Of a DNA stretch of 26,360 nucleotides, positions 10,801 to 26,360 are shown one piece after another; the stretch's first letter is position 1; every line of letters starts with the position of its first letter. The notes below the pieces were generated by a model, which was given only the letters and a program-made list of their open reading frames with translations, was not told where the DNA came from and did not search any database. The translations under genes were made by a program, and so were the position numbers. Origin of the DNA: a virus; the IMG/VR virus record IMGVR_UViG_3300010389_000108, positions 1-26,360 of that record, one strand, 5' to 3'.

Positions 10801-13800
10801 CCAAAATCAACATTCATTGGTATTGGTGAAAGTGCAATGGGAATTGGTGCAACCGCAAACTATCTTGGAGTTGTTACTGATAGACTTCCTGAAAGAGTTT
10901 ACCCAATTGCGATTACACCAGATACATTTAGACTGTCAACACAAAGATCCTTTGCGAATGCTGGAATTTATGTAACATTTACTGATGCTGGTCTTGGTAA
11001 TGCACACGAATTAGAATTCACTAAAAAACTGTCCAAGACTGTAATCTCTCTTGACGGAATTGTTCAGCAACCAATTACATATACTCCAATATCACATACA
11101 CTACAATATAATAGTGGATCTATTTCTGCTGGAATTGCAACTTTCAACCTGAGCGGCATTTCTTCTGTTCAACCAAGAGATTTACTCAAAATTGATGATG
11201 AGTACATGAAGGTCGTTGAAGTTGGCGTGAGCACAAACGTTGGTGGTGCCATTCTTGGACCTATCAATGGTATTATCTCTGCTGGTGCTGCTGCTACATT
11301 CCCAACAGTTTCTGTTGTAAGAGCATCCGTTGGTTCAACAGCAGTTTCTCACAATGATGGTGCAAATGTCCAGATTTACAGAGGATCTATCAATATTGTA
11401 GGAAATGAAGTTTGGTTTACTGATCCACCAAAAGGAAATACAAGAACCAGAAGAAATGAAAGCAACCTTCCTTATGTAAGGGCACAATATTCTGGAAGAA
11501 CATTCCTGAGATCAAATTATGCCACTAACATGATCTTCGATGATATTTCTAATCAGTTTACTGGTATCGGAAAGACATATACTTTGAGCGTTCAGGGTGT
11601 TAATACAACTGGTGTTGATATTGGTAACGGTATTCTGTTTATTAATGGCGTTTTCCAAACACCTACTACGTCAAATAATTCTGGTAATAACTACGAATTT
11701 GAAAATGATGCATCTGTTGGTATTTCTAGTGTTGTATTCACAGGTATTACTTCAACTGATGGATCATTCATCAAATCTGAATTTGATATCAACCAGAATC
11801 AACTCCCAAGAGGTGGTCTGATTGTCTCTCTGGGTTCTACTCCTGGACTCGGATATGCACCTTTGGTGGGTGCAAAGGTCAGAGCAGTCCTTGATGGATC
11901 TGGATCTATTGTTGATGTTATCAGCATTGGAACCACTCTTACAGGAGCAAGTTTGGGTGTTAGCACGGCATCATATGATAATACTTCTGGTATTATTGAA
12001 ATTGAAACCACTACTGCACATGGTTTAGTTGGTGGCGATAGAGTCAAATTAGTTGGACTTGCGTTCACATGCCCAACAAATCCTGGCATTACTTCATACT
12101 TCCCAGAAGATCAACCAAATTATATTGATCGTTCTTATGATATCGTCAATATTCTGTCCAGCACATCTTTAACTGTTAATGTTGGACCTAGCACCATTCA
12201 GCACAATTATGTTGGATTTGGTACTGTTTATGAATACTTTACTCTGAATAATGGATCTGGATACAGAAGTCCTGTTTCTATTGGAATTACTGATCCAAAC
12301 CATTCCGGAACAGAATCTAGCATTTCTGCTACGGTTGGTGCTGGTGGAACACTTGGATTTGTAATTAATAGTGGTGGATCTGGATATGTTGAACCATATA
12401 TTGATATTCCTCAACCTGTCTATGAAAATATGTCGGTAATTGGCGTATCTAGACTTGGTGCCGGATCAACAACAGATACTGGAAGTAATCTTCTCCTGAA
12501 TGTCAAGATCGGATCAGCTTCTACAAACGTTGGTATTGGATCAACATTATTTGTAGTTGAGTCATTTGAAGTTGCACGTCCTGGACATTCCTTCCGTGTT
12601 GGTGATGTGATGAAAGTTGTTGGTCTTGTTACTGCCAAAGACTTTGCACAACCAATATCCGAGTTCCAACTCGAAGTTGTTGAGACATTTAATGACTTCT
12701 TCTCATCATGGTCATTTGGTGAAATGGATTATATTGACAGTACAAGATTACTTCAAAATGGATCTAGAACAAGATTCCCACTTTATTATAATGGACAACT
12801 GCTAAGTTTCGAAATTGATCCTAATGCTCCACTTTCTGGTGCTATTGATCTTGACGCAGTTCTTGTTATATTTGTCAATGGCGTCTTACAGCAACCAGGT
12901 GTTGCATATCAGTTCAATGGTGGAACATCATTCATCTTTACAGAACCACCAAAATCATCCGATAAGGTAGATATTTTCTTCTATCTCGGACAAGATGGTG
13001 TTGATGTTACTTTGATTGACGTAAATGAAACCATCAAAATTGGTGATGATGTATTTGTCAAGAAACATCCATTATATTCAACCACACAAAATCAACTCCG
13101 TGATAGAACCATTGTAGATCTCTTGGGATCCGATTCTGTCGAAACAGATATCTATGTTGGAACTGGAATCAATGAAACCACTTTCAAACCATTTGATTGG
13201 ATTAAGCAGAAGACTGACAAATATATTAAGGGTGATATCGTTTACAAGACGAGAGACATCCTTGAACCACAGATATTCCCAACTGCAAAGATTATTGGTG
13301 ATCTCAACATCGGATCCACCGAAATATTTGTCGATAATGCACAATTCTTCAACTATGAGGAAGATAATTATGGCATCACAATAAACAGTGTTGATGGATT
13401 TATTGTTCAAGGAACAGATCCAGTTTCTGCTGCGTTCACTGCAACAGTTTCTGCTGCTGGAACCATAAGTGCCATTACAATCACAAATGCAGGTCTTGGA
13501 TATTCGACAGCATCGGTAGATGTAAAGATTGCAGCACCTTCTCACATTGGAGTTGGTATTGGATCAACTGCTATCGCCACTGCAACTGTTGCAGGAGGAT
13601 CTGTTACTTCGATTAACATTATAAATCCTGGTCTTGGTTATTCGACAGCAAATCCACCACAAGTTATCACTGAAGTTCCTAAGGTAACCAAGGAAACAAT
13701 TACAACCATCCAAAATGTTCAAGGATTCTCAGGAATTATCACTGGAATTAGCACAACAACTGGAACTAATGGACATCCTCTTGCATTGAAGATCAATTTC

Positions 13801-14229
13801 AGATCCAATTCTTCTGACGCAAATGATCTCCAAGCGGGATATCCACTACTTGTTTACAATACCACTGTTGGTACTGGTGTAACATCCGTAGGAACAGAAG
13901 ATTCTTCGGTTATTGGAATTGGAACAAACTTCCTTGATAATGTTTATATTGTTGGTTCTAAGACAAACTTCGGACCTAATGCAGAGATAGTTTGTAATGT
14001 TCATACAAACAGTGCTGTTATCGGCATTGAAACTTCTGGATCAACTACACTTCCACTAGGAAATATTTCTTGGGGTAGACTATATAATTACGATGTGAGA
14101 ACAAGTCCAGTTTCTATTGGAGTTACTGGATTGACAGTTGATTCTGGATTATCAACATACCCAACTATCCAAAGAAGAACATTTGGATTAAGAAACAGTG
14201 GAGCGATTAGAAAACTTTCTAACATATAA
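1879..14229 (+). CDS. Giant modular virion structural protein (4116 aa), in the T4 gp7 position
   Basis: I recognise this as the very large structural protein that many marine T4-like phages carry between gp6 and gp8. It probably is a peripheral baseplate or tail protein, but I see no sequence signature of T4 gp7 (1032 aa). Residues 1-60 (start MSHFEKRVELNKIIESQLPE) and 195-245 (FIKHARNFYQSKGIEESVKI) form the conserved N-terminal part, likely the attachment end. The remainder is modular: Gly-x-Gly-Tyr units (near 738, 934, 1025, 1073, 1113, 1152, 1418, 2094, 3453, 3494, 3865, 3912), His-Gly...Gly-Asp units (603, 834, 959, 1765, 1825, 2957, 3372), a YHYH-type domain (1235-1355), a PDNDYYQNLSYSIKS segment (about 2408-2425), and NGVxQxP units in the C-terminal third. 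Only about nine cysteines are present. No signal peptide, membrane segment or enzyme motif was seen. The start has a good AGAGGA site, 3 nt after gp6. Structural role is confident; exact site in the particle is inferred. Confidence 0.88.
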   Translation: MSHFEKRVELNKIIESQLPEFLVADFPKAVEFFRQYYISQEYQGADSDLINNLDRYIKIDNLVPEVVVGKTKLSSDITSSDSTITVSSTKGFPEEYGLLKINDEIITYTSKTDTTFSGCVRGFSGITGYNVGISSFLSDVNKQNVVFSTSVAKSHTQDAEVTNLSVLFLQEFYKKLKATFTPGLEDSDFVSDLNVGNFIKHARNFYQSKGIEESVKIIFKVLYGVDAKVLDLEKRLIKPSSAEYIRREVIVAENIAGDPFKLEGQTIFRSNDLNTNASVSDVEIFTRNNKTYYRLGLFVGYNDRDLVEGIFEVPGNSKALEAVTVGASVISVDSTIGFGQTGTLISGTNKIDYTSKSVNQFFGCSGVNSTISLGDDIRADETAFGYEDGDLSKRVDLRITGVLSDFVPLGDLSLIEEGEIITVRHLGEAIQNPNENKTYKQVFANSWIYNTSSRYKVGSIVGSTFTLLSNIDKSSLKEGDVVDVLFRNTNNVASADAQVTSINTATRQVILSNLSGFVPNVSIGYDIRRKLKKVTSSGASLLVGNNNYIANTLNVYSDDQGTTGYVASHSLPGYEIVDDIVESTLPNGYDTNLGGYNATLKTYSTIKFSTNVKFIDGDRITYTSDNPLSGLVSGETYFVKIVAPNEIQLFSSKALISGVNSVRFDQNTTPSVHRFTLRRHENRILSSNNILRKFPLKQELSKSSNPKRSVGNIGILIDGVEISSPESNNKIYYGPLEEFEVLNGGKDYDVINPPQITISTGAGVTALVEPIISGSVKEVFVDAQDFDVENVVSLSINGGNGSGCELQPILGDRFREIEFDSRSISFGGGIDIVDETITFTSNHNLADGQHIIYNQNGNNPLEIGTFGDITNAKTGTLVSGDEYVAKFVNTRTIKLFNNDSDALSGINTVGFSTATFASGIHKFRTLSTKTLRKVKVLSPGSGYQYRKLRVPSSGISTQYDTFKFENHGFEHGDIVTYSTTGTVVSGLSTSNQYSISKIDSDTFRLINVGVAATVTTDLTKSKYVDVQSVGSGYHIFQYPEITITANVSYGSTFSGGFTFTPVVTGEIIGSYLYEKGTGYGSDVLNLHKKPTITLKNGKDAQLNPIISNGRIVDVQVLSKGSEYFSIPEIVVEGSGSGAILRPQIVNGKLDDVIVINGGIGYDAATTTLYADARGSGAIFNVRIRSLTVNDAQRFGEYSKTRTPKIFSNLQKNDTDDYIVYGMYGYSEDLGTNLGDLNGLHSPIIGWAYDGNPIYGPYGYKDADDVQSGVKILNTGYTLDSTNIDDRPSTSTFSSGFFIDDYRYTNDGDLDDHNGRFCKTPEFPNGVYAYFVGVTTSLTSNKLEPSYPYFIGNTFRSDLIAENSTLDQTFDFNGSNLVRNTYPYKVNDPNADYDFFMESYEDFRQESVIESVTQGDVDDVTIEDGGTGYRIGERVNFDQSETGGTGFRAEVSELIGKDVLSIQTSLERYEGCVFVWDDNKQVSAYYRSGFDLNNNDSVLVSGLSTSVVNLAGSARIGFSTETVGLAATMSSYSSTPGGTIEDIFVSSIPNVAIGGSIAIKSSLGSETVRVLNNYQNGVLRVKRYASAGVAHSYSSDLNVLSDRVKIPAKTSKFESRRDDLVYFNANASVGIGTTLGGAVSKTFAIGNVSDTVSIPYRSIYLPGHPFKTGQRLTFTMSDVSGVNALIVGNDETNSGTFNLPDSFTRTADVYVINKSKDYIGLTTQVGLTTNSEGLFFYSDGTNNSEYLLKSNYDQITGDVDRISTLVSTASSHGLVNGDTIKLTVEPNTVVGFGTTAALSIKFNENDQKLLVNSVGINSSQINIATNTITLTDHGYKTGDKVYYSSVEVASGLTTGSYYVVRDSSSTFRLAETRYETSPNTENTVNIVGTGDTTHTFSLINPKIDVIRNSDLKFNLGDSSLRGYEFKIFYDREMKNEFVSVADDGTFNVVGVGSVGFGTATTTINYSENIPSKLYYTLEKSGYISTSDVDVSNYSQINYVDSEYNGSYKVFGISTNTFRISPQRLPSVLKYANDQVDKLEYTTKSSTAINGSIGKVKIISKGFNFNKLPKFTDVTTQDGKNANIVAVSTSIGNVKSVRIKDVGYDYPSDKTLRPEAFVPPVIRVDNLDTIDSIDIVFGGAKYLNAPDLLLFNETTKKVVDSTTLIADAPNGSVSDVIQIAPIYGLDSEPHKIVSINNSNGVGISSMVTSNSGVATCTLKTPILGFSSPQFTAGDKIYVEGIELIPGSTGSGYNSDNYDYRFFTVDSYQNTNPAEVTFSLVDVDGVGLTTNPGIAKTFQSGYATIVNEENYPIINVNRKRSSFSLNEQLFVNVGGGFFEEDVFVSAVRDDYIKITGRYSLQKGDKIKGKVSGAIAEVSSVNGNRAKFTIDYSSRKNIGWRNDIGKISEDYQVTPDNDYYQNLSYSIKSPIPWNTFVNPVNGILHPAGMKNFADVGITSVANNGVGLGGSTTSIAILDVVGERRVDIINNFDNAVDFDTRTNPDQSKFLKIQNRKLTDYTECRTNRVLIHDDISNKFSSRGFEDPFVEIEEIDIRDTHVRYLIQIVDPDTLDSQLSELVLQTSTIDSILFEKSTSFTNEKLGDFSANVDDTGRKTLLFYPTDIYNRDHDIKVLKKTFLNASAGLGTETFGSIRLTGSNVIGISSVGTASSIGTLLEVSDTNFNGLFANIEITNTFTKDVNYVEAILDINSNNTYLSEYYFDTKTQSYSANSLGIVTSIYDSTAGIVSFRVQNDTANLLDVRANIVGFANTTLGIGTHTFLVSAQPAASARSARLESTLGFGTDVVRVGTFDINTINSVSSLVRVSSGSSSAIHQVAYAYNGEEVVVTPGPFAASNNTTGLGTFGGQVTGSQFFLNFYPDSGYDVEVQGFNEVFYTESDFDNEPLQLSYGPSNQRLFLSAYDGINGARANKVNFPLFHEGSPIYKKTFSPSDTTIVDYATGVFTIRDHFFNTGEELIYTPKSTFIGIGESAMGIGATANYLGVVTDRLPERVYPIAITPDTFRLSTQRSFANAGIYVTFTDAGLGNAHELEFTKKLSKTVISLDGIVQQPITYTPISHTLQYNSGSISAGIATFNLSGISSVQPRDLLKIDDEYMKVVEVGVSTNVGGAILGPINGIISAGAAATFPTVSVVRASVGSTAVSHNDGANVQIYRGSINIVGNEVWFTDPPKGNTRTRRNESNLPYVRAQYSGRTFLRSNYATNMIFDDISNQFTGIGKTYTLSVQGVNTTGVDIGNGILFINGVFQTPTTSNNSGNNYEFENDASVGISSVVFTGITSTDGSFIKSEFDINQNQLPRGGLIVSLGSTPGLGYAPLVGAKVRAVLDGSGSIVDVISIGTTLTGASLGVSTASYDNTSGIIEIETTTAHGLVGGDRVKLVGLAFTCPTNPGITSYFPEDQPNYIDRSYDIVNILSSTSLTVNVGPSTIQHNYVGFGTVYEYFTLNNGSGYRSPVSIGITDPNHSGTESSISATVGAGGTLGFVINSGGSGYVEPYIDIPQPVYENMSVIGVSRLGAGSTTDTGSNLLLNVKIGSASTNVGIGSTLFVVESFEVARPGHSFRVGDVMKVVGLVTAKDFAQPISEFQLEVVETFNDFFSSWSFGEMDYIDSTRLLQNGSRTRFPLYYNGQLLSFEIDPNAPLSGAIDLDAVLVIFVNGVLQQPGVAYQFNGGTSFIFTEPPKSSDKVDIFFYLGQDGVDVTLIDVNETIKIGDDVFVKKHPLYSTTQNQLRDRTIVDLLGSDSVETDIYVGTGINETTFKPFDWIKQKTDKYIKGDIVYKTRDILEPQIFPTAKIIGDLNIGSTEIFVDNAQFFNYEEDNYGITINSVDGFIVQGTDPVSAAFTATVSAAGTISAITITNAGLGYSTASVDVKIAAPSHIGVGIGSTAIATATVAGGSVTSINIINPGLGYSTANPPQVITEVPKVTKETITTIQNVQGFSGIITGISTTTGTNGHPLALKINFRSNSSDANDLQAGYPLLVYNTTVGTGVTSVGTEDSSVIGIGTNFLDNVYIVGSKTNFGPNAEIVCNVHTNSAVIGIETSGSTTLPLGNISWGRLYNYDVRTSPVSIGVTGLTVDSGLSTYPTIQRRTFGLRNSGAIRKLSNI
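2116..2253 (+). other. 'Inducing' DEIITY module near the N-terminus of the giant protein
   Basis: Residues about 80-125 contain STKGFPEEYGLLKINDEIIT followed by an aromatic-rich turn and CVRGFSG. Related but weaker versions occur at residues about 335-370 (GTNKIDYTSK) and 3098-3115 (DLLKIDDEYMKV), and in the 2452-residue protein near residue 2045 (YALIQNEVISYSNI). The unit reads as strand-turn-strand with a conserved acidic-Ile-Tyr core. Function is unknown to me. Confidence 0.5.
3685..5430 (+). repeat. Dense block of alternating beta modules in the giant protein
   Basis: Residues about 603-1184 alternate two units. The first is a His-Gly...Gly-Asp unit, seen as NVKFIDGDRITYTSD, HNLADGQHIIYNQ and HGFEHGDIVTYST, each followed 25-60 residues later by a strand such as NEIQLFSS, RTIKLFNN or DTFRLINV. 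The second is a Gly-x-Gly-Tyr unit, seen as LNGGKDYD, SPGSGYQY, SVGSGYHI, EKGTGYGS, LSKGSEYF and INGGIGYD. At DNA level many copies use the same codons, for example GGATCTGGATAT at 4698-4709 and 4968-4979. The pattern suggests a repeated beta fold built by duplication. Confidence 0.6.
5581..5940 (+). other. YHYH-type domain embedded in the giant protein
   Basis: Residues 1235-1354 match the layout of the YHYH domain (Pfam PF14240, from memory): HSPIIGWAYDGNPIYGPYGY at 1240-1259, then DLDDHNGRFCKTPEFPNG at 1308-1325, then the namesake position VYAYFV at 1326-1331, and a closing YPYFIGNTF at 1346-1354. The namesake Tyr-His-Tyr-His is degenerate here (Tyr-Ala-Tyr-Phe). Histidines at 1240 and 1312 and aspartates at 1249, 1310 and 1311 remain. 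The domain's function is not established; in a virion protein a surface-binding or metal-binding role is conceivable but only inferred. Confidence 0.7.
9031..9240 (+). other. PDNDYYQNLSYSI segment of the giant protein
   Basis: Residues about 2385-2454 hold a recognisable conserved block: PDNDYYQNLSYSIKSPIPW, then a VNGILHPAGMKNFADVGI stretch. It follows an SGA module (GKVSGAIAEVSS, about 2366-2377). I have an impression of similar blocks in other large marine-phage structural proteins, but this is from memory and was not searched. Confidence 0.4.
11038..13014 (+). repeat. NGVxQxP-type units in the C-terminal third of the giant protein
   Basis: Three copies of a short strand-turn-strand unit are visible: LDGIVQQPITYTP (from about 11050), LFINGVFQTPTTSNN (about 11635-11680) and IFVNGVLQQPGVAYQF (about 12870-12915). 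The first and last are followed by an aromatic strand (for the last, FIFTEPPKSSDKVDIFFYLG). Units of this kind are common in phage tail adhesins, so the C-terminal third may be the outward-facing part. Confidence 0.5.
13492..13650 (+). repeat. Near-identical 21-nt direct repeat encoding GLGYSTA
   Basis: Bases 13492-13512 and 13630-13650 differ at one position and both encode Gly-Leu-Gly-Tyr-Ser-Thr-Ala in the same frame. They sit at equivalent places in two successive Gly-x-Gly-Tyr units (SAITITNAGLGYSTA and SINIINPGLGYSTA), so this looks like a recent tandem duplication of one unit of about 46 residues. Confidence 0.65.
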
Positions 14230-15818: not shown

Positions 15819-18800
15819 ATGCCACAAAAGACGAACCTCAATGTAAGTCCTTATTATGATGATTTTGATAAGGACGATAACTTTTACAGAGTTCTTTTCA
15901 AACCTGGACATCCTGTTCAGGCAAGAGAGTTAACGGGTCTTCAATCAATCTTACAAAATCAGATAGAATCTTTTGGAAGTCACATCTTCAAAGAAGGTTC
16001 TATGGTAATCCCTGGTGGGGTTACATGTGATAACACTTTTACTACTGTAAAAGTAAATCCAGACCACCTTGGCATTGATATTACAGTTTATCTTGATGCG
16101 ATTGTTGGTGCAAATAATGGCAAAGGTGCAAAGGTTCGTGGTCAAAGTTCAGGTATTGTAGGTACATTAAAGGGATATTTACTGCCACCAGAAGAGGGTG
16201 TAGAAGAAATAACTTTGTTTGTTAAGTACCGTGATGGTGCAGATGATGGAGAGTCTGTTGAATTTTCAGATGGTGAGATATTAATATTAGAAGAAAACGT
16301 CACTTATGGTAATACCACTTTAAATAGTGGAGATACTGTACTAAATGTATTTTCTGTAAATGCAACTGCAACAGGTTATGCAGTTGGTGTTGCACAAGGT
16401 GTTTACTTCATTAGAGGTGTATTTGTAGATGTTCCGACATCACAAATTGTTCTTGACCCTTATGATGTCAATCCTTCATATAGAGTTGGATTTGACATTG
16501 TAGAGGAGATTGTAAATTCTGATGAAGATCCATCACTCAATGATAATGCAAAAGGATTTACAAACTATGCTGCACCAGGTGCAGATAGATTAAAAATTAG
16601 TGTTAAGTTAGCAAAGAAACAACTTACAGACTTTGAAGATACAAATTTTGTAGAGCTTGTTAAGATTGATCAGGGAGAGATCAAAAAATTACAAGATAAA
16701 ACAGAATATAGTATAATTAAAGATTATTTTGCTAAGAGAACTTTTGAGGAGTCTGGAAACTACGCTATTGACCCATTTAAGGTTGATGTAGTAAATTCTC
16801 TGAACAATGAGACTGGCAACGGAGGTCTTTATAGAGAGGGTCAGAAGACTGAGCAGGGTAATATACCTAATGACGATTTGATGTGCGTTAGAGTGTCATC
16901 TGGCACCGCATACGTTAAGGGATTTGATATTGATCTCGTTGGGTCATCGATTGTTGATGTACAAAAACCAAGAACTACCAAAAAAGTTAATGGTGCATTA
17001 GTACCTTTTGCAATGGGTAGTTTGTTAAAGGTTAATAATGTATTTGGTGTTCCTTACATAAACATTGGTGCTCCAACAGGAAGTGGAGATAATGTAATTG
17101 AACTTTATAATAGAAGAAGAAATACTTCAACAACTAATGCAGGAACTGGTTTAAAAATTGGTGATGCAAGAGTTTATTGGTATGGAGTTTCCGATGCACC
17201 ATATTCGGGTGCAACTACTGAGTGGGACTTATACCTTTATGATATTCAAACTTACACCACACTTTATCTTGGTAGAGAGTATTCAACTTCAGATGTTCCT
17301 CTAACTTCATTTGTTAGAGGTCTTTCTAGTGGAGCAACAGGATATTTGGCATCAAAACCAAATGCTGGTGCATTCAGTCTTTCTCAGACATCTGGAACTT
17401 TCCTTGTTGGTGAAAGTGTAATTATTAACGAAAGAGAGGAGTATAAGGCAGGAATTAAAGCAATCAATGCCTATACAGTAGAAGATATCAAATCAGTATG
17501 GCAAAATTCTGATACCTTAAATACATCATTACAGACTGATTTCATCGCTGATGCGGTTCTTTATCAGACGATGCCACCTCAGTTTTCTATTACTGATAAA
17601 CTGACCGTCAGTGGTGGAAATACTGGTGCAGTTCCAGGAAGATTCTTTAATGCTGTAACTGGAATTAAAACAGAAGCAATTATTGCATATCAGACTGGTG
17701 GTCAAACTGATCCAAACTTCAATAGAATTACTTCAATTGCTGCAAATGGAACTTCAATTAGTATTGCAGCACTGGATTCTAGTGTAAGTGGTGTTGCAAG
17801 AGCAGACGTAGATAATGGAGATTCTGTTTTCAGAATCATGGTTCCAAAAATTTCTGGTGTTGAAGCATCAGGTCTTTACTCAGAACTTCCAGAATCAAAT
17901 ATTGCTTCTGTCGATCTTGCACAATCTGATCTCACAATCACCAAGCAAATCACAGGACGCTCAACCAATGGTAGTGGTGAACTTACTATCACTACTTCTG
18001 ATGCATTAGATGCCAGTGCTGGTATTACTAGTGTATTCTTTGAAGCATTTGATGCGGAAAGATATTCAGTACACTATTCCAACGGAACCACAGAAAATCT
18101 GACATCAGACCAATTCACTCTCGGTGAAGGTGGTAGTTCTATCACCCTTACAAACCTAAATGCAACTGAAACAAATGTAACTGTCATTACGACACTTAAA
18201 AAGCAGAGTGTTACAAATAAGTCCAAAAATCTTACAAGAAGTAAGCAAATATCAGTAACAAGAACCAGTGGCGTTTCAACTGCTACCGGACTTAGTACAA
18301 GTAACTATTATGGTTTGAGAGTTGAGGATGATGAAATTTCCCTCAACGTACCTGATGTTGTTAGTATTCGTGCAATTTATGAGTCTACTGACACTTCTGC
18401 ACCTGTTCTGGATAGACTGACCTTTGCAACAGGATTGGGACTGGATACAAATGCCATCGTAGGTGAAAAGATTGTTGGGCAAAATAGTAGAGCTATTGCA
18501 CAAGTTGTAAACAAAACATCAACAACTATCGACTTTGTTTATCTGAATGAAGATAATTTTGAAATTGGCGAGACTGTTAAATTTAAAGAGTCTGCTATTA
18601 GTGCAATCATTCAAGATGTAAGAAATGGAAGTTATGTCGATAGAACTAAAAACTACATTTTAGATAAGGGTCACAAGAATCAATATTGTGATTACTCTAG
18701 AATTAGAAGAATCCAAGGTGGTGCAGTGCCATCCAAGCGTCTTTTGATTATCTTAGACCATTATAAGGTTGCATCAGGAAATAGTGGTGATATCTTTACA

Positions 18801-21800
18801 GTAAATTCTTACACTCAGGAAAGATATACATCAGATATTCCTGCTGTTCCAAATGGAACTCGTGTCACAGATCTTCTCGACTTCAGACCAAGAGTTTCTG
18901 AGTTTGATCCTAGTACAGCAACTGGATCTCCATTTGCATTTAGCAGCAGATCATATGAATCCAACTATCGATATGTAATTTCACCAGATGAAACTTCATT
19001 TATTGGATATAGTTACTACTTACCAAGAATTGATCTGGTAACTTTAAATCGTCTTGGTGAAATTGAAGTAGTTAAAGGGGAACCAAATGATAGTCCTCAG
19101 GCACCTGTTTTAGCAGACGATGCAATGGAGATTGCACAAATTAATCTCCCAGCATATCTTTATAATCCAGCAAAAGATCCAAAAATTCTTCTGCGTGATA
19201 ATAGAAGGTTTACGATGCGTGACATCGCTAAACTGGAAGAAAGAATTGAGAATCTTGAAGAAGTTACCAGTCTGACTTTACTTGAACTGAATGCAAAATC
19301 TATTGAAGTAACAGATGCAAATGGTCTCAACAGATTTAAGTCTGGATTTATTGTTAGTGATTTTAGAGATAAATCTCTTGCAGACCCAAGATACACCACA
19401 ATTGACGTAAGTAAAGAAGGTGCCACCGCAATTGCACCTATTGACTTCTGGTCAATGCAAGCAGAACTGGCACTTGATCCAGGTATTGATAGAAGCAAAA
19501 CTGATATCTCTCAAAACCTGAGATTACTTGATCCAAATATTCAAAAAACTGGTGATCTTTTAACTCTCAAATATGAAGAGGTTGAATGGATCAATCAACC
19601 ACATGCAACTAATGTAGAAAACGTCAACCCATTCAATGTTATTGTTTTCGTCGGCGGTATTGCACTCGACCCACAGTCCGATAATTGGGTAAGAACAATC
19701 TACATTGATGATCATAGAGTTGAATCAACTGGTGCCGAATGGGTACAAGAAGCAAAAGTAAATGTTGATGTTGATAAACAAACTGAATATGTTACTTACA
19801 GAAAAGGTGGCGGTAGAGGTGAGAAAAAGACAAAGGCATTTACTACAACAACTACAACTACAACAACAAAATATACACCAAAACTCACTGGACCTTCAAG
19901 AGAGTTTAACTACGTTGAAGATGTCAAGATTTCTGGAAATGTTGACCCATACATGCGTTCAAGAAACGTATACTTCAATGCAAATGGTCTGAGACCATAT
20001 ACAAAGCATTACCATTATCTCGATAGTCAACAAGTTGATATTGTACCAAAACTTTGCGAAATCAACATGGTATCTGGAACATTCCAGGTATTTGAAGATG
20101 CTGATATCTTCTATGGTGGAAGAAAAATTGGTCACATTAGAATTCAAAAACCAAATCACAAGTTTGGCGACACCAGTAGACCAGATATTGGTGCTGGATT
20201 AGGTTCTCCTGCCGTTTTGGTTGAAGAATATAGTGTTGATCCATATGATAGAACACGCCCAGCACCAGGAACTGCATATTCACCAACCTCAAAACTGATC
20301 AACTTTGGTGTAAGAGCACTTGCAAATAATGAAAAATATTATGGATACGTAACTTCTGGTGCAAGAGTTATTGGTAGATCTAGTGGTGCTATTGCAACAA
20401 TTACAAGAGCAGAATTGATCTCCGATAACTGGGGTGATATCGTTGCGAACTTCTTCTTCAGAGATCCAAATGGAAATCCACCACCACCAGTAAAGGTTAA
20501 GAGTGGAACTAAGACTGTAAAAGTCACTGCGGTTCCACCTGGTGTTACTCCACTTCCAGGATCGACAGTATTTGCTAGTGAGGCACTTGGTACTTATAGT
20601 GGTTCTGGAACTATTCTGAAGCAAGAAACAAGTCGCGTTTCTGTTAGAAATCCACCCAAACCAGCAGCAAAACCAACGGAGGTCAGTGTTAAGGTTAAAG
20701 CACCTCACAGAGATCCTCTTGCACAATCATTCACTGTTGATGGCAGAGGTGCCTTCCTCACATCGTTTGATCTTTACTTTGCAACCAAAGATCCCGGTGC
20801 AAAGATCTATATTGAACTTAGAACAGTCGAACTTGGAACTCCAACATCATTCTTGGTTCAGGACTTTACACAAATTGCTTTAAGTCCAGATAATATCAAT
20901 ATCAATGAAGCAAATCCATTTGAACCAGTTCCAACAAACATTAAGTTCCCATCTCCAGTTTATCTTGAAGCAGATAAAGAATATGCAATTGTGATTCTTT
21001 CACCGGCATCTGATGGTTATGAGATGTGGACTGCCACAATGGGACAGAAGACAGTTAGAACTCAAAATCTTCCCGATGTTCAGAATGTTGTTGTTACTAA
21101 GCAATACATTGGCGGTTCTCTCTTTAAGTCTCAAAATGGTACAATTTGGACACCAAGTCAATATCAAGACTTGACATTCAAACTTTATAAAGCGAAGTTT
21201 GTTCCTTCTGGAACAGTTACTTTCTATAACTCAGATATTACTCCAAATGGTGGAAATGTTTCCAAACTTGTAGATAATCCTATTGAAGGTCTACCAAGAA
21301 AGTTAAAGGTTGGAGTTACTGGTGTAAATGCATCAGATATTTCAAACATTGTACCTGGAAGGAAAATTGGTCAAGGATCAAGTCCAAGCGTAACTGGTAT
21401 TGTTGAAAATCTTGGTGGTTCTATTGGAGTTGCCACTGTAATCACCGAGGGTAGTCAATATCCAGGTGGAACTCATACAACGGTTAACTTGTTCTCTATT
21501 TCTGGAAAAGGAACGGGAGCACAAGGAACAATAACTGTAAATGGAAGTGGAAATCTTTCAGTCACAATAACATCTTCTGGTAGTGGATATGTAAATGGCG
21601 AAGTTCTTGGTATTACTACTGCCGATATTGGTGGTGGTTCTGGTGCAAGAATTAGCGTTCAGCAAAGAAACAACACCTTTGATACAATCTACCTGACTAA
21701 TGTTCAGGGAGAAAACTTTACTAACTCATCTACTGTTGTTTTCTATACCGATCAAAATGATGAAGGCACAAGGACAAATGCAAATGCATCTGTAAGTGGG

Positions 21801-23177
21801 ACTTCAAGTCTTATTGATGACAAATTCTCTGGAAATGTTTTCAGAGTCAAGCAATATAACCATGCACACCATGGTGGAAACAATAAGATTGAAATTACAA
21901 ACATTCTTCCAGACAGAGAAAAAGTTGCACTCACTGCCGATTTCGGATTGAATGACACAACAGTTTCTGTTGCAAATACAACTCCATTCGCTACATTTGA
22001 AGGAATTACAACAACTCGTGGATATGCACTTATCCAAAATGAAGTTATTTCTTACAGCAATATTACCGCTGGTTCTGGTGGGGCAGGAACTCTCACTATC
22101 GATTCAAGAAACTTGAACAATACTGTTAAGAGCACTCACCCATCATCTGACTTTATCCAACCATATGAAGTAAATGGTGTTTCTCTCATGAGAATCAACA
22201 AGACTCATGATATTCCAGCAACATATTATAGAGAAGAATCTTCTAACCTTGATAACTATTACTTAGAGTTTGATAGATCTTCACCAGTCAACAGATCTTC
22301 TGGGTCTTCGATGATTAACTTTGAAGCACAGAAGGGATTTGGTGGAAATACTGTTGGAATTTCACAAAACCACCAGTTCAGTTCTATTGAACCAGTATTT
22401 AACTTGATTACTCCTGGTAGAGGAACTGCTGCCAGTGCTCGTATCAGAACAATTTCTGGAACAAGTGCTGGTGGAAATGAAACATCGTTCCTTGATCAAG
22501 GATTTGAACCAGTTCCTCTGAATAGAGTTCTTCACTTCCGCACACCTAGAATGGTTGCATCAAGAGTTAATGAACTTACTAGACTGACTGATCTTCCATC
22601 AAACAAATCTCTCACGATGAGTGTTGATTTTAGAACGGAAAATGAGAATCTCTCACCCGTAATGGACATTCAGAATGCTACCTTTGTTCTTGGTAGAAAT
22701 AAGTCCAACAAACCTGTTGAGGACTATGTAACTGATAGCAGATCAAATGAGGTAAATAGTGATCCTCATGGTGCAGTATTTGTTACCAGAATGACTGGAT
22801 TGCAACAACCAGCAACAAGTCTTAGAGTTATCATCGGTGCAAATAGACAGGAAGATGCTGATTTCAGAGTATTCTATAAACTCTTTAAAGCAGACTCTAC
22901 GGAAATCACACAGAAATTCGTTCCTTTCCCTGGATATGATAATATGAAGGATACTGATGGCGATGGATTTGGTGATGAAGTAATTGATCCAAATAAGAAC
23001 AGTGGTCGTGCTGATGCATTTGTTGCTCCCAATAACAGCAAATCATTCTCGGAATATCAATTTACAGCAAACAATTTGGATCAGTTTGATGCTTTTGTTA
23101 TTAAAGTTGTTCTTTCTTCCAAGAATGAATCAACACCAGTTAAGTTGAAGGATTTCAGAGCAATTGCTCTTGCATAA
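15819..23177 (+). CDS. Large baseplate/tail structural protein with DUF4815-type N-terminus (2452 aa)
   Basis: The N-terminus (NVSPYYDDFDKDDNFYRVLF, then KPGHPVQARELTGLQSILQN) is the hallmark of the DUF4815 phage structural family as I remember it; it occurs just after gp8 in cyanomyoviruses. In T4 gp9 and gp10 follow gp8, so this protein may fill that peripheral wedge role; that is inference. Landmarks in order: SGA modules near residues 103, 497, 881 and 1516; a short coiled coil MRDIAKLEERIENLEEVTSL (from about 1132); DANGLNRFKSGFIVSDF (about 1167-1183); a basic Gly-rich linker and nine-threonine run (1342-1350); DPYMRSRNVYFNANGLRP (about 1376); DPLAQSFTVDGRGAFLTSFD (about 1632), opening a jelly-roll-like region; Gly-x-Gly-Tyr units near 1918; a calcium-loop-like DTDGDGFGDE (2378-2387); and the C-terminus LKDFRAIALA. 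About four cysteines occur. The start is 3 nt after gp8, with no clear Shine-Dalgarno. Structural protein: confident. Exact role: not. Confidence 0.88.
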   Translation: MPQKTNLNVSPYYDDFDKDDNFYRVLFKPGHPVQARELTGLQSILQNQIESFGSHIFKEGSMVIPGGVTCDNTFTTVKVNPDHLGIDITVYLDAIVGANNGKGAKVRGQSSGIVGTLKGYLLPPEEGVEEITLFVKYRDGADDGESVEFSDGEILILEENVTYGNTTLNSGDTVLNVFSVNATATGYAVGVAQGVYFIRGVFVDVPTSQIVLDPYDVNPSYRVGFDIVEEIVNSDEDPSLNDNAKGFTNYAAPGADRLKISVKLAKKQLTDFEDTNFVELVKIDQGEIKKLQDKTEYSIIKDYFAKRTFEESGNYAIDPFKVDVVNSLNNETGNGGLYREGQKTEQGNIPNDDLMCVRVSSGTAYVKGFDIDLVGSSIVDVQKPRTTKKVNGALVPFAMGSLLKVNNVFGVPYINIGAPTGSGDNVIELYNRRRNTSTTNAGTGLKIGDARVYWYGVSDAPYSGATTEWDLYLYDIQTYTTLYLGREYSTSDVPLTSFVRGLSSGATGYLASKPNAGAFSLSQTSGTFLVGESVIINEREEYKAGIKAINAYTVEDIKSVWQNSDTLNTSLQTDFIADAVLYQTMPPQFSITDKLTVSGGNTGAVPGRFFNAVTGIKTEAIIAYQTGGQTDPNFNRITSIAANGTSISIAALDSSVSGVARADVDNGDSVFRIMVPKISGVEASGLYSELPESNIASVDLAQSDLTITKQITGRSTNGSGELTITTSDALDASAGITSVFFEAFDAERYSVHYSNGTTENLTSDQFTLGEGGSSITLTNLNATETNVTVITTLKKQSVTNKSKNLTRSKQISVTRTSGVSTATGLSTSNYYGLRVEDDEISLNVPDVVSIRAIYESTDTSAPVLDRLTFATGLGLDTNAIVGEKIVGQNSRAIAQVVNKTSTTIDFVYLNEDNFEIGETVKFKESAISAIIQDVRNGSYVDRTKNYILDKGHKNQYCDYSRIRRIQGGAVPSKRLLIILDHYKVASGNSGDIFTVNSYTQERYTSDIPAVPNGTRVTDLLDFRPRVSEFDPSTATGSPFAFSSRSYESNYRYVISPDETSFIGYSYYLPRIDLVTLNRLGEIEVVKGEPNDSPQAPVLADDAMEIAQINLPAYLYNPAKDPKILLRDNRRFTMRDIAKLEERIENLEEVTSLTLLELNAKSIEVTDANGLNRFKSGFIVSDFRDKSLADPRYTTIDVSKEGATAIAPIDFWSMQAELALDPGIDRSKTDISQNLRLLDPNIQKTGDLLTLKYEEVEWINQPHATNVENVNPFNVIVFVGGIALDPQSDNWVRTIYIDDHRVESTGAEWVQEAKVNVDVDKQTEYVTYRKGGGRGEKKTKAFTTTTTTTTTKYTPKLTGPSREFNYVEDVKISGNVDPYMRSRNVYFNANGLRPYTKHYHYLDSQQVDIVPKLCEINMVSGTFQVFEDADIFYGGRKIGHIRIQKPNHKFGDTSRPDIGAGLGSPAVLVEEYSVDPYDRTRPAPGTAYSPTSKLINFGVRALANNEKYYGYVTSGARVIGRSSGAIATITRAELISDNWGDIVANFFFRDPNGNPPPPVKVKSGTKTVKVTAVPPGVTPLPGSTVFASEALGTYSGSGTILKQETSRVSVRNPPKPAAKPTEVSVKVKAPHRDPLAQSFTVDGRGAFLTSFDLYFATKDPGAKIYIELRTVELGTPTSFLVQDFTQIALSPDNININEANPFEPVPTNIKFPSPVYLEADKEYAIVILSPASDGYEMWTATMGQKTVRTQNLPDVQNVVVTKQYIGGSLFKSQNGTIWTPSQYQDLTFKLYKAKFVPSGTVTFYNSDITPNGGNVSKLVDNPIEGLPRKLKVGVTGVNASDISNIVPGRKIGQGSSPSVTGIVENLGGSIGVATVITEGSQYPGGTHTTVNLFSISGKGTGAQGTITVNGSGNLSVTITSSGSGYVNGEVLGITTADIGGGSGARISVQQRNNTFDTIYLTNVQGENFTNSSTVVFYTDQNDEGTRTNANASVSGTSSLIDDKFSGNVFRVKQYNHAHHGGNNKIEITNILPDREKVALTADFGLNDTTVSVANTTPFATFEGITTTRGYALIQNEVISYSNITAGSGGAGTLTIDSRNLNNTVKSTHPSSDFIQPYEVNGVSLMRINKTHDIPATYYREESSNLDNYYLEFDRSSPVNRSSGSSMINFEAQKGFGGNTVGISQNHQFSSIEPVFNLITPGRGTAASARIRTISGTSAGGNETSFLDQGFEPVPLNRVLHFRTPRMVASRVNELTRLTDLPSNKSLTMSVDFRTENENLSPVMDIQNATFVLGRNKSNKPVEDYVTDSRSNEVNSDPHGAVFVTRMTGLQQPATSLRVIIGANRQEDADFRVFYKLFKADSTEITQKFVPFPGYDNMKDTDGDGFGDEVIDPNKNSGRADAFVAPNNSKSFSEYQFTANNLDQFDAFVIKVVLSSKNESTPVKLKDFRAIALA
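19842..19868 (+). repeat. ACN triplet run encoding nine consecutive threonines
   Basis: Nine codons ACT/ACA in a row encode Thr 1342-1350 of the 2452-residue protein. They follow a basic linker GGGRGEKKTKAF and precede KYTPKLTGPSREF. Units are multiples of three, so changes in copy number would lengthen or shorten a linker without a frameshift. It probably marks a flexible junction between the N-terminal half and the C-terminal domains. Confidence 0.85.
22950..22979 (+). other. Calcium-loop-like DTDGDGFGDE motif
   Basis: Residues 2378-2387 of the 2452-residue protein read DTDGDGFGDE, followed by VIDPNKNSGRADAF. This matches the DxDxDGxxDx pattern of thrombospondin type 3, dockerin and EF-hand-like calcium loops. 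Only one copy is present, near the C-terminus, so it is a candidate ion site, not a demonstrated one. Confidence 0.5.
23148..23170 (+). promoter_or_regulatory. Distant Shine-Dalgarno plus palindrome before the gene at 23179
   Basis: AAGGA at 23148-23152 is the only Shine-Dalgarno candidate for the ATG at 23179, but it is 26 nt away. Between them lies a perfect 14-nt palindrome AGAGCAATTGCTCT (23157-23170), able to form a 5-bp stem with an AATT loop. Folding would shorten the effective spacing to about 12 nt. T4 gene 38 is known for such a hairpin-shortened spacing. All of this lies within the end of the upstream coding region. Confidence 0.4.
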
Positions 23178-23597: not shown

Positions 23598-23825
23598 ATG
23601 GCTGAAATTAAAGTCAGAGTAGGTCAACAACCGGCAGTAAAAGTAATATCTTCTCTTGCAGGTGCCCAGGGTCTCTCTTTGGCGGAACTCAGTGATGTTA
23701 GTGCTACTAACTTGCAGAATGGTATGGTGCTTGTTTACAACAGCAGCATTAGAAAGTGGGAAGCAACTCTTACCCTGACGCCAGGTGCAACGCAGAATTT
23801 AGACATCAACGGAGGAAATTTCTGA
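23598..23825 (+). CDS. Small fibre-like structural protein (75 aa)
   Basis: The protein starts MAEIKVRVGQQPAVKVISSL and contains LAELSDVSATNLQNGMVLVY followed by NSSIRKWEA. This is the L-x-D-V...NG-x-x-L-x-Y-N...K-W unit that recurs in phage tail-fibre proteins, so it is probably a small virion component or a chain that trimerises with a fibre. Its C-terminus, NLDINGGNF, is nearly the same as that of the following 580-residue protein (STLDGGNF), suggesting a shared assembly or contact motif. It is the first gene after the TATAAATA at 23562, lacks a visible Shine-Dalgarno, and ends 1 nt before the next ATG. Virion association is inferred. Confidence 0.75.
   Translation: MAEIKVRVGQQPAVKVISSLAGAQGLSLAELSDVSATNLQNGMVLVYNSSIRKWEATLTLTPGATQNLDINGGNF
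23811..23825 (+). promoter_or_regulatory. Dual-purpose GGAGGAAATTTCTGA: C-terminus codons plus ribosome binding site
   Basis: These 15 bases encode Gly-Gly-Asn-Phe-stop of the 75-residue protein. The GGAGG at 23811-23815 also lies 11 nt before the ATG at 23827 and is its only Shine-Dalgarno. An almost identical sequence does the same job at 25555-25569. Confidence 0.65.
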
Positions 23826-23826
23826 C

Positions 23827-25569
23827 ATGGCAAGTATTATTAGGATTAAAAGATCCTCAGGTACTAGCAAACCAGCCAGTTTACAATGGGGTGAATTTGG
23901 TTACGTAACTGGTATTGGTAGTTACGGAGGACTCAATCAATACAAGGATAGAATTTTCCTTGGAGATGATGGTACAAATGCCAATCCAGTTGGTGGTTAC
24001 TACTACACCTCCATGATGGAGCACCAACCAGGTGCTATTGATGGAATTTCTAATACAAGAAATCAAGATAACGGCGTGGTTGCCGTTATGGCACCAGCAA
24101 CAAACTCAGGTTTAGGTGGTGCTTCTTCTCTCAAAGTTGATCAGTGGAACGTAGATAATTTAAGAATTGATTTAAATACAATCTCATCAACAGATACTGA
24201 TGGTGATATAAATTTAGATCCAAATGGTATTGGTAGCGTAAGACTTCCAGATAATACATACCTGACATTTGGTGATGATGATAACGTAGGAATGCGTTAT
24301 GATGAAGCAAATGATGATAGATTTGAAATCGAAGGTGCCGATTGGTTCTTCGATGGTGGAGTACAAATTACAATCAATGATTCAACAGAATCAACAACCA
24401 AAGATAATGGTGCTTTGGTTGTTGAAGGTGGTGTTGGCATCGAGAAGAATCTCAATGTTGGTGGAGATCTCCATATAGATGGAGTATCAATATTTGATTC
24501 TATCAAAATTTCTGATAATGTAATTTCGACTATAAATGATGGAACCAATACTCTTTACATCGATCCATATCCCGATGGATTGAGTAATGAAGGTACTGTC
24601 ATCATTAAAGGTGACTTACAAGTTGATGGAACAACTACTCAAGTAAATTCCACAACAGCAACAGTCAATGATCCAATCATTCATCTTGGTGATGTAACAA
24701 GTGTTAGAACTGTAACAGAAACTGTTGTTTCTGGTGTAAGTACAATTCGTTTAGATTCTATCGTCGGAATCAACACTGGTGATATCATCAGTGGCAATGC
24801 TGGGTTAAACGCAGGTGCGGCAAACACTGTCACATCTTACGATACATCCAATAAGATTATTACGTTAACTGATGCAACCATTTCTGGAATTGCAACTACT
24901 ACACAGTTAACCATTACTCACGCATATGACACCAATACTGATAGGGGTGTTTCTTATTCGTACAATACTAGCAGTGGAACTAGCAACAATAAGATTGGTT
25001 TCTTTGGTTTAGACGATAGTTCTATTGCAAGCAGCACCGCTGATGCCGATAATCATGGCACACATGCTGATGACAGCAGAAGATGGACGTACATCCCAGA
25101 TGCTGGCATTACAAATAGTGTTGTAAGCGGAACCAAAGGTTTCTTAGACGTTAAGGGTCTTTACTATCAATCTGGTGATTATGAATTAGGTGGTGTTGTA
25201 TACTTCGATAGTGAAGGTTTACAGAGATCAACAAATGCAGTTGCATCACCTGTAATTACTTCTAAGCAGATTTTAACTGCTGTCACCAAGAATACATTAT
25301 CTCTCGGTAGTGCAATTTCTGCAAGTGCTGGTGATATTATCAGACAGGATTCTAGTGGTGCCTATGGTGTCGTAGAAACAACCGTATCTTCTTCAACCAC
25401 AGTCGATTTGATTGGAGTTGAAGGTACATTCAGTACAGCATACAACCTCAGAAGAGAGGGTCAAAATGGATTTATTGAAGATCTTTCTTCAATACCAAGC
25501 GGTGGTGTTACTGTAATATATACTAATAAACCACAGTGGACTTCGACATTGGATGGAGGTAATTTCTGA
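23827..25569 (+). CDS. Fibre or whisker-like virion structural protein (580 aa)
   Basis: The N-terminus MASIIRIKRSSGTSKPASLQ followed by WGEFGYVTG and DRIFLGDDGT fits the 'KRS...P...L..GELA...LYxGDG' opening common to phage fibre proteins. Residues about 185-300 carry KDNGALVVEGGVGIEKNLNV, GGDLHIDG, IIKGDLQVDGTTTQVNST and NDPIIHLGD, a beta-helical, fibre-type stretch widespread in T4-like marine phages. Residues about 501-547 hold an SGA module (RQDSSGAYGVVETTV, then GTFSTAYNL) shared with the large proteins upstream. The C-terminus is STLDGGNF, echoing the preceding small protein. No intramolecular chaperone or enzyme motif is seen. In T4 this position, just before gp13, is occupied by gp12 and fibritin; a collar or fibre role is therefore plausible but inferred. 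The gene is 3 nt before the next ATG. Confidence 0.82.
   Translation: MASIIRIKRSSGTSKPASLQWGEFGYVTGIGSYGGLNQYKDRIFLGDDGTNANPVGGYYYTSMMEHQPGAIDGISNTRNQDNGVVAVMAPATNSGLGGASSLKVDQWNVDNLRIDLNTISSTDTDGDINLDPNGIGSVRLPDNTYLTFGDDDNVGMRYDEANDDRFEIEGADWFFDGGVQITINDSTESTTKDNGALVVEGGVGIEKNLNVGGDLHIDGVSIFDSIKISDNVISTINDGTNTLYIDPYPDGLSNEGTVIIKGDLQVDGTTTQVNSTTATVNDPIIHLGDVTSVRTVTETVVSGVSTIRLDSIVGINTGDIISGNAGLNAGAANTVTSYDTSNKIITLTDATISGIATTTQLTITHAYDTNTDRGVSYSYNTSSGTSNNKIGFFGLDDSSIASSTADADNHGTHADDSRRWTYIPDAGITNSVVSGTKGFLDVKGLYYQSGDYELGGVVYFDSEGLQRSTNAVASPVITSKQILTAVTKNTLSLGSAISASAGDIIRQDSSGAYGVVETTVSSSTTVDLIGVEGTFSTAYNLRREGQNGFIEDLSSIPSGGVTVIYTNKPQWTSTLDGGNF
25555..25569 (+). promoter_or_regulatory. Second dual-purpose GGAGGTAATTTCTGA
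   Basis: The last codons Gly-Gly-Asn-Phe-stop of the 580-residue protein contain GGAGG, 13 nt before the ATG at 25573. It differs at one base from the copy at 23811-23825. The spacing is on the long side, but no better Shine-Dalgarno is present. Confidence 0.55.
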
Positions 25570-25572
25570 TAA

Positions 25573-25767
25573 ATGGAAAATCAAAGTGAAGTTGACGTTA
25601 ATGTTTTGATGAAATTATATCATACAAAACTTGCACAAGCTACAAATCAAAATGTACTGTTAGAAGCAAAACTAACAACTCTGACTAATGATTATAGAGA
25701 ACATATTGAATCATTATTACAAGAAAATGCTGATTTGAAGCAACAGTTAGAAGAAAAATCGGAGTAA
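25573..25767 (+). CDS. Small coiled-coil protein (64 aa), unknown function
   Basis: The sequence MENQSEVDVNVLMKLYHTKL leads into a long helix with leucines and isoleucines at heptad-like spacing (LLEAKLTTL, then HIESLLQENADLKQQLEEKS). It is almost certainly an all-helical coiled coil, acidic, without cysteine or a membrane segment. Being placed just before gp13 and translated from a late operon, it may be an assembly helper or minor collar component. Its size is far below T4 fibritin, so I do not call it that. It ends 1 nt before the gp13 ATG, and the gp13 ribosome binding site GGAG (25761-25764) is in its last codons. Confidence 0.8.
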   Translation: MENQSEVDVNVLMKLYHTKLAQATNQNVLLEAKLTTLTNDYREHIESLLQENADLKQQLEEKSE

Positions 25768-25768
25768 T

Positions 25769-26360
25769 ATGGCAAAACCATCAACTAGACAAGGACTGAT
25801 TGATTACTGCCTCCGTCAATTGGGAGCACCAGTATTAGAGATTAACGTTGATGATGATCAGATTGATGATCTAGTTGATGATGCCATTCAATATTTCAAT
25901 GAACGTCATTATGACGGCGTTGAAAAGATGTACCTCAAATATCAGATTACACAAGATGATATTAATAGAGGAAAAGCATCTGGAACTTCTGGAGTTGGTA
26001 TCGTAACAACAACTGCCACTTCTACTAATATTAGTGGATATGGAACTCTTAGTTCCAATTTTTATGAAACCTCAAACTTTATCCAAGTTCCAGATTCTGT
26101 AATTGGTATTGAAAGAATATTCAGATTTGATACCAGTTCAATTTCTGGTGGGATGTTTAGTATCAAGTATCAGTTATTCTTAAACGACTTATACTACTTC
26201 AACTCAGTTGAACTTCTCCAATATGCAATGACCAAATCATATCTTGAAGATATTGATTTTCTTTTAACAACAGACAAGCAAGTAAGATTTAATAAGAGAC
26301 AAGATAGATTATATCTTGATATTGACTGGGGATCACAAAGTGCTGGGAACTATCTTGTTC
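25769..26360 (+). CDS. 13: Neck (head completion) protein gp13 (3'-partial)
   Basis: This is the T4 gp13 homologue, which with gp14 forms the neck that closes the packaged head and offers the docking site for the tail. 197 complete codons are visible; T4 gp13 has 309 residues, so about a third is missing at the right edge. The signature is in the first 50 residues: MAKPSTRQGLIDYCLRQLGA, then PVLEINVDDDQIDDLVDDAI and QYFNERHYDG. A Gly/Ser/Thr-rich loop (ASGTSGVGIVTTTATSTN, about residues 72-90) follows, typical of the cyanophage version as I remember it. After that come the conserved VPDSVIGIERIF and the helical-plus-sheet block YQLFLNDLYYF. GGAG 4 nt upstream serves as ribosome binding site. 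The gene normally precedes gp14, gp15 and the tail sheath gene, which are outside the window. Confidence 0.95.
   Translation, partial: MAKPSTRQGLIDYCLRQLGAPVLEINVDDDQIDDLVDDAIQYFNERHYDGVEKMYLKYQITQDDINRGKASGTSGVGIVTTTATSTNISGYGTLSSNFYETSNFIQVPDSVIGIERIFRFDTSSISGGMFSIKYQLFLNDLYYFNSVELLQYAMTKSYLEDIDFLLTTDKQVRFNKRQDRLYLDIDWGSQSAGNYLV

Follow-up and report, generated by a model that had tools for sequence, protein, structure and literature searches.

A conserved C-terminal tail of cyanophage small proteins and fibres whose codons probably double as the ribosome binding site of the next gene

The DNA analysed here, called the window below, is the whole 26,360-base virus contig IMGVR_UViG_3300010389_000108 of IMG/VR (positions 1 to 26,360), and its content is that of the structural region of T4-like cyanophages; profile searches recognise gp13 and, among baseplate wedge proteins, gp8 and a gp6-like one. 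Homologues of gp8 are present in 507 GenBank phage records. Genes are simple open reading frame (ORF) calls, not annotations. Our subject is the ends of two successive genes upstream of gp13, encoding proteins of 75 and 580 amino acids (aa). In P-SSM2, PSSM2_117 (T4-GC113), PSSM2_118 (T4-GC114), PSSM2_119 and gp13 occur in the same order as in the window; the 75-aa protein is 78.7% identical to PSSM2_117, and the 580-aa protein is 56.0% identical to PSSM2_118 over its full length. By homology and synteny, the two genes are thus the T4-GC113 and T4-GC114 orthologues. The 75-aa protein matches phrog_13853 (1.7e-28), and the 580-aa protein matches phrog_15769 (1.1e-115) and phrog_697, 'structural protein' (1.2e-12); with different PHROG families and different N-termini, the two proteins appear otherwise unlike, as an earlier note on this DNA had remarked. 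For the 75-aa protein, PF14783 (BBS2_Mid) was rejected, as it lies under its gathering cut-off.

The two genes end in frame with the 15-mers GGAGGAAATTTCTGA (23811-23825) and GGAGGTAATTTCTGA (25555-25569), which are identical at 14 of 15 positions. The pattern GGNGGNAAYTTYTRA has only these two matches in the window when both strands are searched, and none of 100 dinucleotide shuffles of the window gave two. The next starts are ATG 23827, located 11 nt after the end of the first GGAGG, and ATG 25573, located 13 nt after the second, and both are backed by conserved N-termini of relatives (MASIIRIKRS and MENQSEVDVNVL-like). The description in the earlier note, of two Gly-Gly-Asn-Phe-stop ends with GGAGG 11-13 nt before an ATG, is exact. 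P-SSM2 shares the orthologous genes, their order and the tail with the window, but its codons are GGG-GGA and GGG-GGT where the window counterparts have GGA-GGA and GGA-GGT. GC114-type proteins end in LDGGTF in 71 of 101 cases and in LDGGNF in only 6 of 101; the exact identity of the two GGNF ends is therefore largely incidental, a conserved core plus the coincidence that Asn is second-last in both. Features are collected in Table 1.

Table 1. Genes and sequence elements of the locus, in window coordinates
Feature	Position	Strand	Basis
75-aa protein, small-protein member of fibre cassette	23598..23825	+	ORF; PSSM2_117 (T4-GC113) orthologue
Motif codons AAC GGA GGA AAT TTC TGA (N-G-G-N-F-stop)	23808..23825	+	End of 75-aa ORF
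GGAGG, putative Shine-Dalgarno sequence of 580-aa gene, in frame within Gly-Gly codons	23811..23815	+	
580-aa beta-rich fibre-like protein	23827..25569	+	ORF; PSSM2_118 (T4-GC114) orthologue
Motif codons GAT GGA GGT AAT TTC TGA (D-G-G-N-F-stop)	25552..25569	+	End of 580-aa ORF
GGAGG, putative Shine-Dalgarno sequence of 64-aa gene	25555..25559	+	
64-aa ORF, position of P-SSM2 PSSM2_119 (T4-GC115), between GC114 and gp13	25573..25767	+	ORF, synteny
gp13 (neck protein), N-terminal part, cut by window end	25769..26359	+	phrog_211 head-tail adaptor 1.3e-26; synteny
Giant ORFs of 4,116 and 2,452 aa flanking gp8	1879-14229 and 15819-23177		By synteny P-SSM2 gp7 and T4-GC109

To describe the protein end, positions are counted back from the C-terminus. 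Among 2,615 genes of ten Kyanoviridae genomes, 18 end exactly in [DN]xGx[FYW], where 1.6-1.7 are expected from residue frequencies and eight shifted registers give 0-3 each; for [DN]GGx[FYW] there are 12 exact ends, versus 0.09 expected and 0-2 in shifted registers. Thirteen of the 18 belong to small proteins or fibres in cassettes of this kind (2014f 1, S-CAM9 2, S-B43 3, P-SSM2 2, Melnitz 1, P-HM2 2 and Mosig 2), two short S-B43 proteins being assigned to the cassette by position and tail without a hidden Markov model (HMM) match; the other five may be chance. In the same scan S-RIM8, P-SSM3 and S-PM2 gave no such end in such a cassette. A GC113 profile, with the last 8 residues left out of the query, found 199 ORFs among the fetched sequence, and after removal of 74 in loci fetched by a Gly-Gly-imposing motif pattern (motif-fetched loci), 120 of the remaining 125 end in [DN]xGx[FYW], with Gly at -4 in 102 and another residue in 18. 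The last five comprise three EGGTF ends, one with an extra residue and one long ORF that ends differently. Fibres chosen by an N-terminal motif, none of them from motif-fetched loci, have this ending in 123 of 124 cases. Position -2 is variable (N, T, S, V, F among others), and the residue ahead of the tail is usually hydrophobic. Comparison of these sequences shows that GC113-type small proteins and GC114-type fibres share a conserved tail, [DN]-x-G-x-[FYW]-COOH. Whole-record GGNGGNNNNTWYTRA scans of 21 records, in which 21 of the 63 matches coincide with the end of an ORF of at least 45 codons, are uninformative on their own because reversed control counts are similar; only in-frame gene ends matter.

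The tail was then related to the distance of the next gene, a start within 4 nt being called near, 5-12 nt middle and more than 12 nt far. The pooled set joined the 199 GC113-HMM matches (2 without [DNE]xGx[FYW] dropped) with the 124 fibres and held 285 rows after deduplication; 71 of these, all near, came from motif-fetched loci and are left out of the recounts. One row was dropped (L549, DCGTFA end) and four were reassigned to near (L090, L134 and L144, where TAGTG provides a GTG start, and the clipped contig L493); before these changes the counts of GGA or GGG (GGR) at -4 were 72/73 near and 5/36 far. Counted in 70%-identity clusters of the homology-collected set, motif-fetched loci excluded, GGR stands at -4 in 22 of 23 near clusters (20 GGA, 2 GGG, 1 GGT) and in 2 of 33 far clusters (Fisher P 3e-12, without correction for shared ancestry). 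When motif-fetched loci are included, with Gly-Gly imposed and codons free, near clusters have GGR in 75 of 76.

Single genes give the same picture, since 119 of the 120 near genes from loci not motif-fetched have GGA or GGG at -4. A codon-blind scan for DGGx[FY] genes overlapping a gp13-like start returned at least 120 junctions and at least 93 distinct tails; among the matches listed, the junctions have GGA 103, GGG 15, GGT 2 and GGC 0, and the distinct tails GGA 79, GGG 12 and GGT 2. Codon choice inside genes is different: internal [DN]GG in the 124 fibre genes uses GGT in 59 of 69 cases, GGC in 9 and GGA in 1, and the first codon of internal Gly-Gly in the ten genomes (n = 4,089) is GGT in 75.8%, GGA in 11.4%, GGC in 9.8% and GGG in 3.0%. 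The other codons of the abutting ends vary. In the 120 near genes from loci not motif-fetched, Asp is GAT in 37 and GAC in 21, Phe is TTC in 86 and TTT in 24, and the stop is TAA in 84, TGA in 32 and TAG in 4, so that the DNA of abutting gene ends is fixed only at GGRGG. The near/far and internal [DN]GG contrasts point to selection of the codons at the gene end at the RNA level, beyond the protein.

Not only the codon but also the residue at -4 depends on distance. Gly is found there in 23 of 23 near clusters and 15 of 33 far clusters (Fisher P 6e-6, again uncorrected for shared ancestry); far genes without it carry Ala, Tyr, Cys or Phe, and [DN], the -3 Gly and the final aromatic stay. Loci chosen by gp13 homology allow the same comparison at one place in the genome (79 of 80 loci; L102 is excluded, its match beginning at base 6). 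Taking at each locus the longest ORF whose end lies no more than 300 nt upstream of gp13, 68 loci show a [DN]GGx[FYW] end and 9 a different one; in the other 2 no such ORF was found. Thirty-one such ORFs, including several from near-identical contigs, end within 2 nt of the gp13 start, and 30 of them end in DGGx[FY] (GGA 29, GGG 1), the odd one, L154, ending in EGES. At ten gp13 loci, QFKRG-type fibres lie 242-289 nt upstream of gp13 with a short ORF between; five end in VDGGSF with GGT and five in ID[AC]G[ST]F. For the 23 distinct QFKRG fibres that have a called gap of 22-64 nt before the next start, -4 is Gly in 14 (GGT 12, GGG 2, no GGA), Ala in 6 and Cys in 3, and 22 of the 23 still end in DxGxF. 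Small proteins upstream of QFKRG-type fibres, with called gaps of at least 29 nt, end in DAGxF, DYGxF, DFGxW, DGGxW or DGGxF. Since D/N, the -3 Gly and the aromatic are kept whatever follows, and Gly at -4 is universal only in near genes, the first Gly is apparently owed to the downstream Shine-Dalgarno sequence (SD).

As a separate observation, many of the QFKRG fibres with a gap of 22-64 nt have a TATAAATA box and a terminator-like hairpin before the next gene. In L117, L118, L152, L153, L155 and L163, a TATAAATA-like box, an inverted repeat (GGTGGG...CCCACC or GGGTAGGA...TCCTACCC) and a T run are found 3′ of the fibre stop, which looks like a late promoter and a terminator in one lineage.

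Comparisons within one genome or contig were made where one gene lies within 4 nt and another more than 8 nt from the next start. In five of the six pairs found, the abutting gene has GGR and the spaced gene another codon. S-B43 has three DGGxF genes in a row, of which the ATG-overlapping one has GGA and the two gapped ones GGT; in S-CAM9 the abutting gene has GGA, and the spaced fibre has Cys instead; Mosig has GGA when abutting, and Ala at a junction whose start lies 9 nt off, behind a separate GGAG that follows the stop; P-HM2 has GGG when abutting and GGT at 13 nt; and contig L112 has GGA at 1 nt and GGC at 10 nt. In many contigs with a second gene at 5-8 nt, mostly GGG or GGA is still there. 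Pairing with the anti-SD sequence was calculated over 17 nt, from 20 to 4 nt before the start. The best site overlaps the two Gly codons in all 120 abutting genes not motif-fetched, and the median energy is -9.5 kcal/mol for these relatives versus -4.0 kcal/mol for 674 adjacent junctions in general. By this comparison, GGA/GGG-GGN at -4/-3 of near genes puts a strong predicted anti-SD match before the next start.

Taken together, the data suggest that two messages probably share one stretch of DNA, a conserved protein tail and the likely ribosome binding site (RBS) of the next gene. The ribosome would use the predicted GGRGG site for the next gene. The -4 codon would be set by the SD, as would the very occurrence of the first Gly where genes abut, and the protein would dictate the other three positions, [DN], G(-3) and the final aromatic. 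Because the last five residues are conserved on proteins with differing N-termini (VRVGQ-type and IKRS/QFKRG-type), a connector or assembly signal is suggested, and there is a little less than an even chance that the tail is a short linear signal through which small protein and fibre are both attached to one partner near the neck, in the virion or during assembly; this connecting step is the less certain one. A more tentative extension, which we would rather doubt than assert, is that the first Gly of [DN]-G-G-x-[FY] is dispensable for the protein and fixed only by the SD of the next gene, so that the same end would serve as connector and translational joint, and fibre bodies could be exchanged before gp13 with assembly and neck-protein expression kept. 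The RNA part of this reading is well supported by comparison among relatives, and the function of the protein is one that we infer. The finding is real, explained in large part and somewhat unusual.

The earlier note had offered two accounts. Its functional C-terminal peptide with codons co-opted as RBS gains comparative support in both halves, with 'docking' a putative role, and its remark that GGN codons for Gly-Gly suit both uses is right; the data go further and suggest that only the RBS requires the first Gly. Its other account, an RBS cassette moving with gene ends, is not supported in that form, since GGRGG is the only fixed part of the DNA and the tail is also kept where no RBS is present. 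It had also reasoned that, if the ending were equally frequent with varied Gly codons in genes not followed by another gene, only the protein motif would matter. The outcome lies between the two cases: the ending does occur in genes lacking a close follower, with GGT or another residue at -4, and GGA/GGG where a gene abuts, so codon use depends on the follower.

Explanations that need only one of the two messages fit poorly. If the RBS alone were selected, the Gly-Gly of the protein would be a by-product of a codon-aligned GGAGG; this motif does occur 47 times within the final 24 nt of upstream genes across the 674 adjacent junctions (20 codon-aligned, 27 not), and a small non-fibre P-SSM3 ORF ends in VNGGFF with GGAGG. 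The far class contradicts this idea by keeping the tail: an SD has no use for [DN], G(-3) or the final aromatic, and yet they are kept in far genes, as seen in 22 of the 23 QFKRG fibres, chosen with no rule on the tail, and in 120 of 125 GC113 matches, near and far. We regard it as very unlikely. Even harder to maintain is selection on the protein tail alone with GGA/GGG as ordinary codon choice, which is contradicted by the near/far and internal codon contrasts: GGA/GGG occurs in 119 of 120 abutting genes versus GGA in 1 of 69 internal [DN]GG, and is mostly missing in far genes and in the spaced gene of five of six pairs. Conservation of the tail whatever the context agrees with this explanation, to which we give almost no credence.

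Two other explanations concern history, and both are improbable. The gene end and next start could be a recombination joint for swapping fibre bodies before gp13, the tail and RBS being carried along, in agreement with the varied bodies (at least 93 different last-20-residue tails among the 120 gp13-overlap junctions listed) and with Ile before the imposed DGGx[FY] in 84 of 93 tails among the matches listed. However, GG, D and F/Y are imposed by the pattern of that scan, no DNA tract is conserved (the Asp, Phe/Tyr, stop and -2 codons vary), and the peptide is also found without an RBS and at junctions inside the cassette. Such a joint keeps a small but real chance. A clade-wise coincidence of spacing and codons, inherited with no functional link, we hold slightly less probable still. 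It draws on the GC113 tree, which includes motif-fetched rows; near/far changes occur only three times on its 51 rows, and the pair test is underpowered. On the other side, GGR is kept throughout the diverse near part of that tree except in two rows of one lineage, and -4 varies among G, A, Y and F in the far part. Moreover, five of six within-genome or within-contig pairs agree with a functional link, and the internal codon control is drawn from the fibre genes themselves.

Several observations weigh against the two-message reading or narrow it. The GGAGG-to-ATG spacings in the window are long, 11 and 13 nt exceeding the textbook SD spacing. GGT occurs in two abutting genes of one lineage (ACG-2014f L317 and L483), GGA in the far gene L157, and GGG in the far fibres L154 and L548, which belong to one cluster; P-SSM2 shows no switch, with GGG both at 0 nt and at 12 nt. 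For far genes, SD prediction at the called next starts gives only weak sites (median -1.1 kcal/mol, n = 49), so that the start calls or SD use there are uncertain and some starts may be miscalled. Only three near/far changes on the GC113 tree mean that part of the near/far association is shared ancestry; independent near/far pairs number one on well-supported branches and three on all, leaving the test underpowered, and since near/far is strongly clade-linked, the Fisher values overstate the evidence. As for the connector, the argument for it is conservation only.

Middle distances deserve separate mention, since clusters with 5-12 nt still have GGR in 7 of 8, and GC114-type genes with a start 5-12 nt away have GGG in 40 of 47, 30 of these despite a TGAGG that could act as SD nearer to the start. 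This persistence of GGG, which opens 3% of internal Gly-Gly, is not predicted by a simple model. Where the following start of a GC114-type gene is at +8 (as in L005, L010 and L129), GGG stands at -4 in 30 of the 31 genes with a stop-overlapping TGAGG as a possible closer SD, and it appears that something still favours the G run beside the closer TGAGG. Another conserved Gly-Gly ending, TGGK/T-x or similar, which offers a contrast for codon constraint, is found in ORFs of ∼126-134 aa in several cyanophages (L329, L338, L360, L374, L388 and L395), five of the six overlapping the next ATG by 4 nt; their first Gly is GGA in 3, GGT in 1, GGG in 1 and GGC in 1. Because of these mixed codons, GGA is not forced at every such junction and the rule is not universal.

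SDs within the end of an upstream gene are a general phenomenon in tightly packed or translationally coupled operons. Overlapping genes and translational coupling are discussed in PMC3887535. The present case resembles such operons in that the coding end of gene 1 contains the SD of gene 2, by an overlapping or adjacent start; it differs in that a conserved C-terminal motif holds the SD in a fixed frame, and in that the relatives suggest which residue serves the RNA and which the protein. It is seldom easy to tell which residues of a protein end serve the RNA, and this natural series suggests an assignment residue by residue. Searches of the open PMC literature showed no description of a tail-fibre C-terminal motif and, among the matches listed and judged by title and abstract opening, none of a cyanophage C-terminus/SD overlap. 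In practice, [DN]xGx[FYW] offers a recognisable C-terminal signature for unannotated cyanophage proteins, by which the small-protein/fibre cassette of ocean phages can be recognised, and structural biologists gain a defined peptide to test.

What the tail might do was also considered from structure. AlphaFold2 monomer models of the 75-aa and 580-aa proteins have mean pLDDT of 66.7 and 63.0 and are mostly strands where structured; they were rejected as fold evidence, being of low confidence and giving no fold. The last 15 residues of the 75-aa protein have a mean pLDDT of 52-54 and the last 7 of the 580-aa protein are below 50, so the tail lies in the low-confidence end of both models and is possibly flexible. 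Foldseek with the 580-aa model found no PDB match at E <= 0.001 (the best, at 1.4e-3, was a tail tube, followed by endosialidase tailspikes), which would suggest at most a 'phage beta protein'. Profile searches of the PDB gave no relative at E <= 1 for the 580-aa family and 14 weak matches for the 75-aa protein (best E 0.0016, to SAKe6AR over 22 positions), with no fibritin among them; fibritin families are likewise absent from the Pfam and PHROG matches of either protein at E <= 0.001.

The whisker protein of T4, fibritin (gpwac), whose gene neighbours gene 13, is alike in being a fibre-like protein beside gp13. It has a short C-terminal element with a function in T4, according to PMC3797505. 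Its conservation pattern, as described there, is the reverse, the phage proteins considered here having variable bodies and a constant C-terminal pentapeptide (PMC3797505). In the neck fibre of Anabaena myophage A-1(L), three proteins of one operon, gp82-gp81-gp80, are joined end to end, as PMC10966104 reports; this gives, by analogy only, a picture of how a shared end might connect different fibre segments (PMC10966104).

Between the fibre gene and gp13, the 64-aa ORF has no match in PHROG and Pfam searches, and its relatives have a similar N-terminus. Beyond gp13, a cluster with FGx[FY] ends was rejected as a member of the fibre family, because its position right after gp13 is that of gp14. 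These gp14-position proteins (L128:10843-12234 and ∼100 cluster sequences) have a conserved NPFGx[FY] end that overlaps or adjoins the following start, and they have the G-x-[FY] C-terminus in common with the fibre tail.

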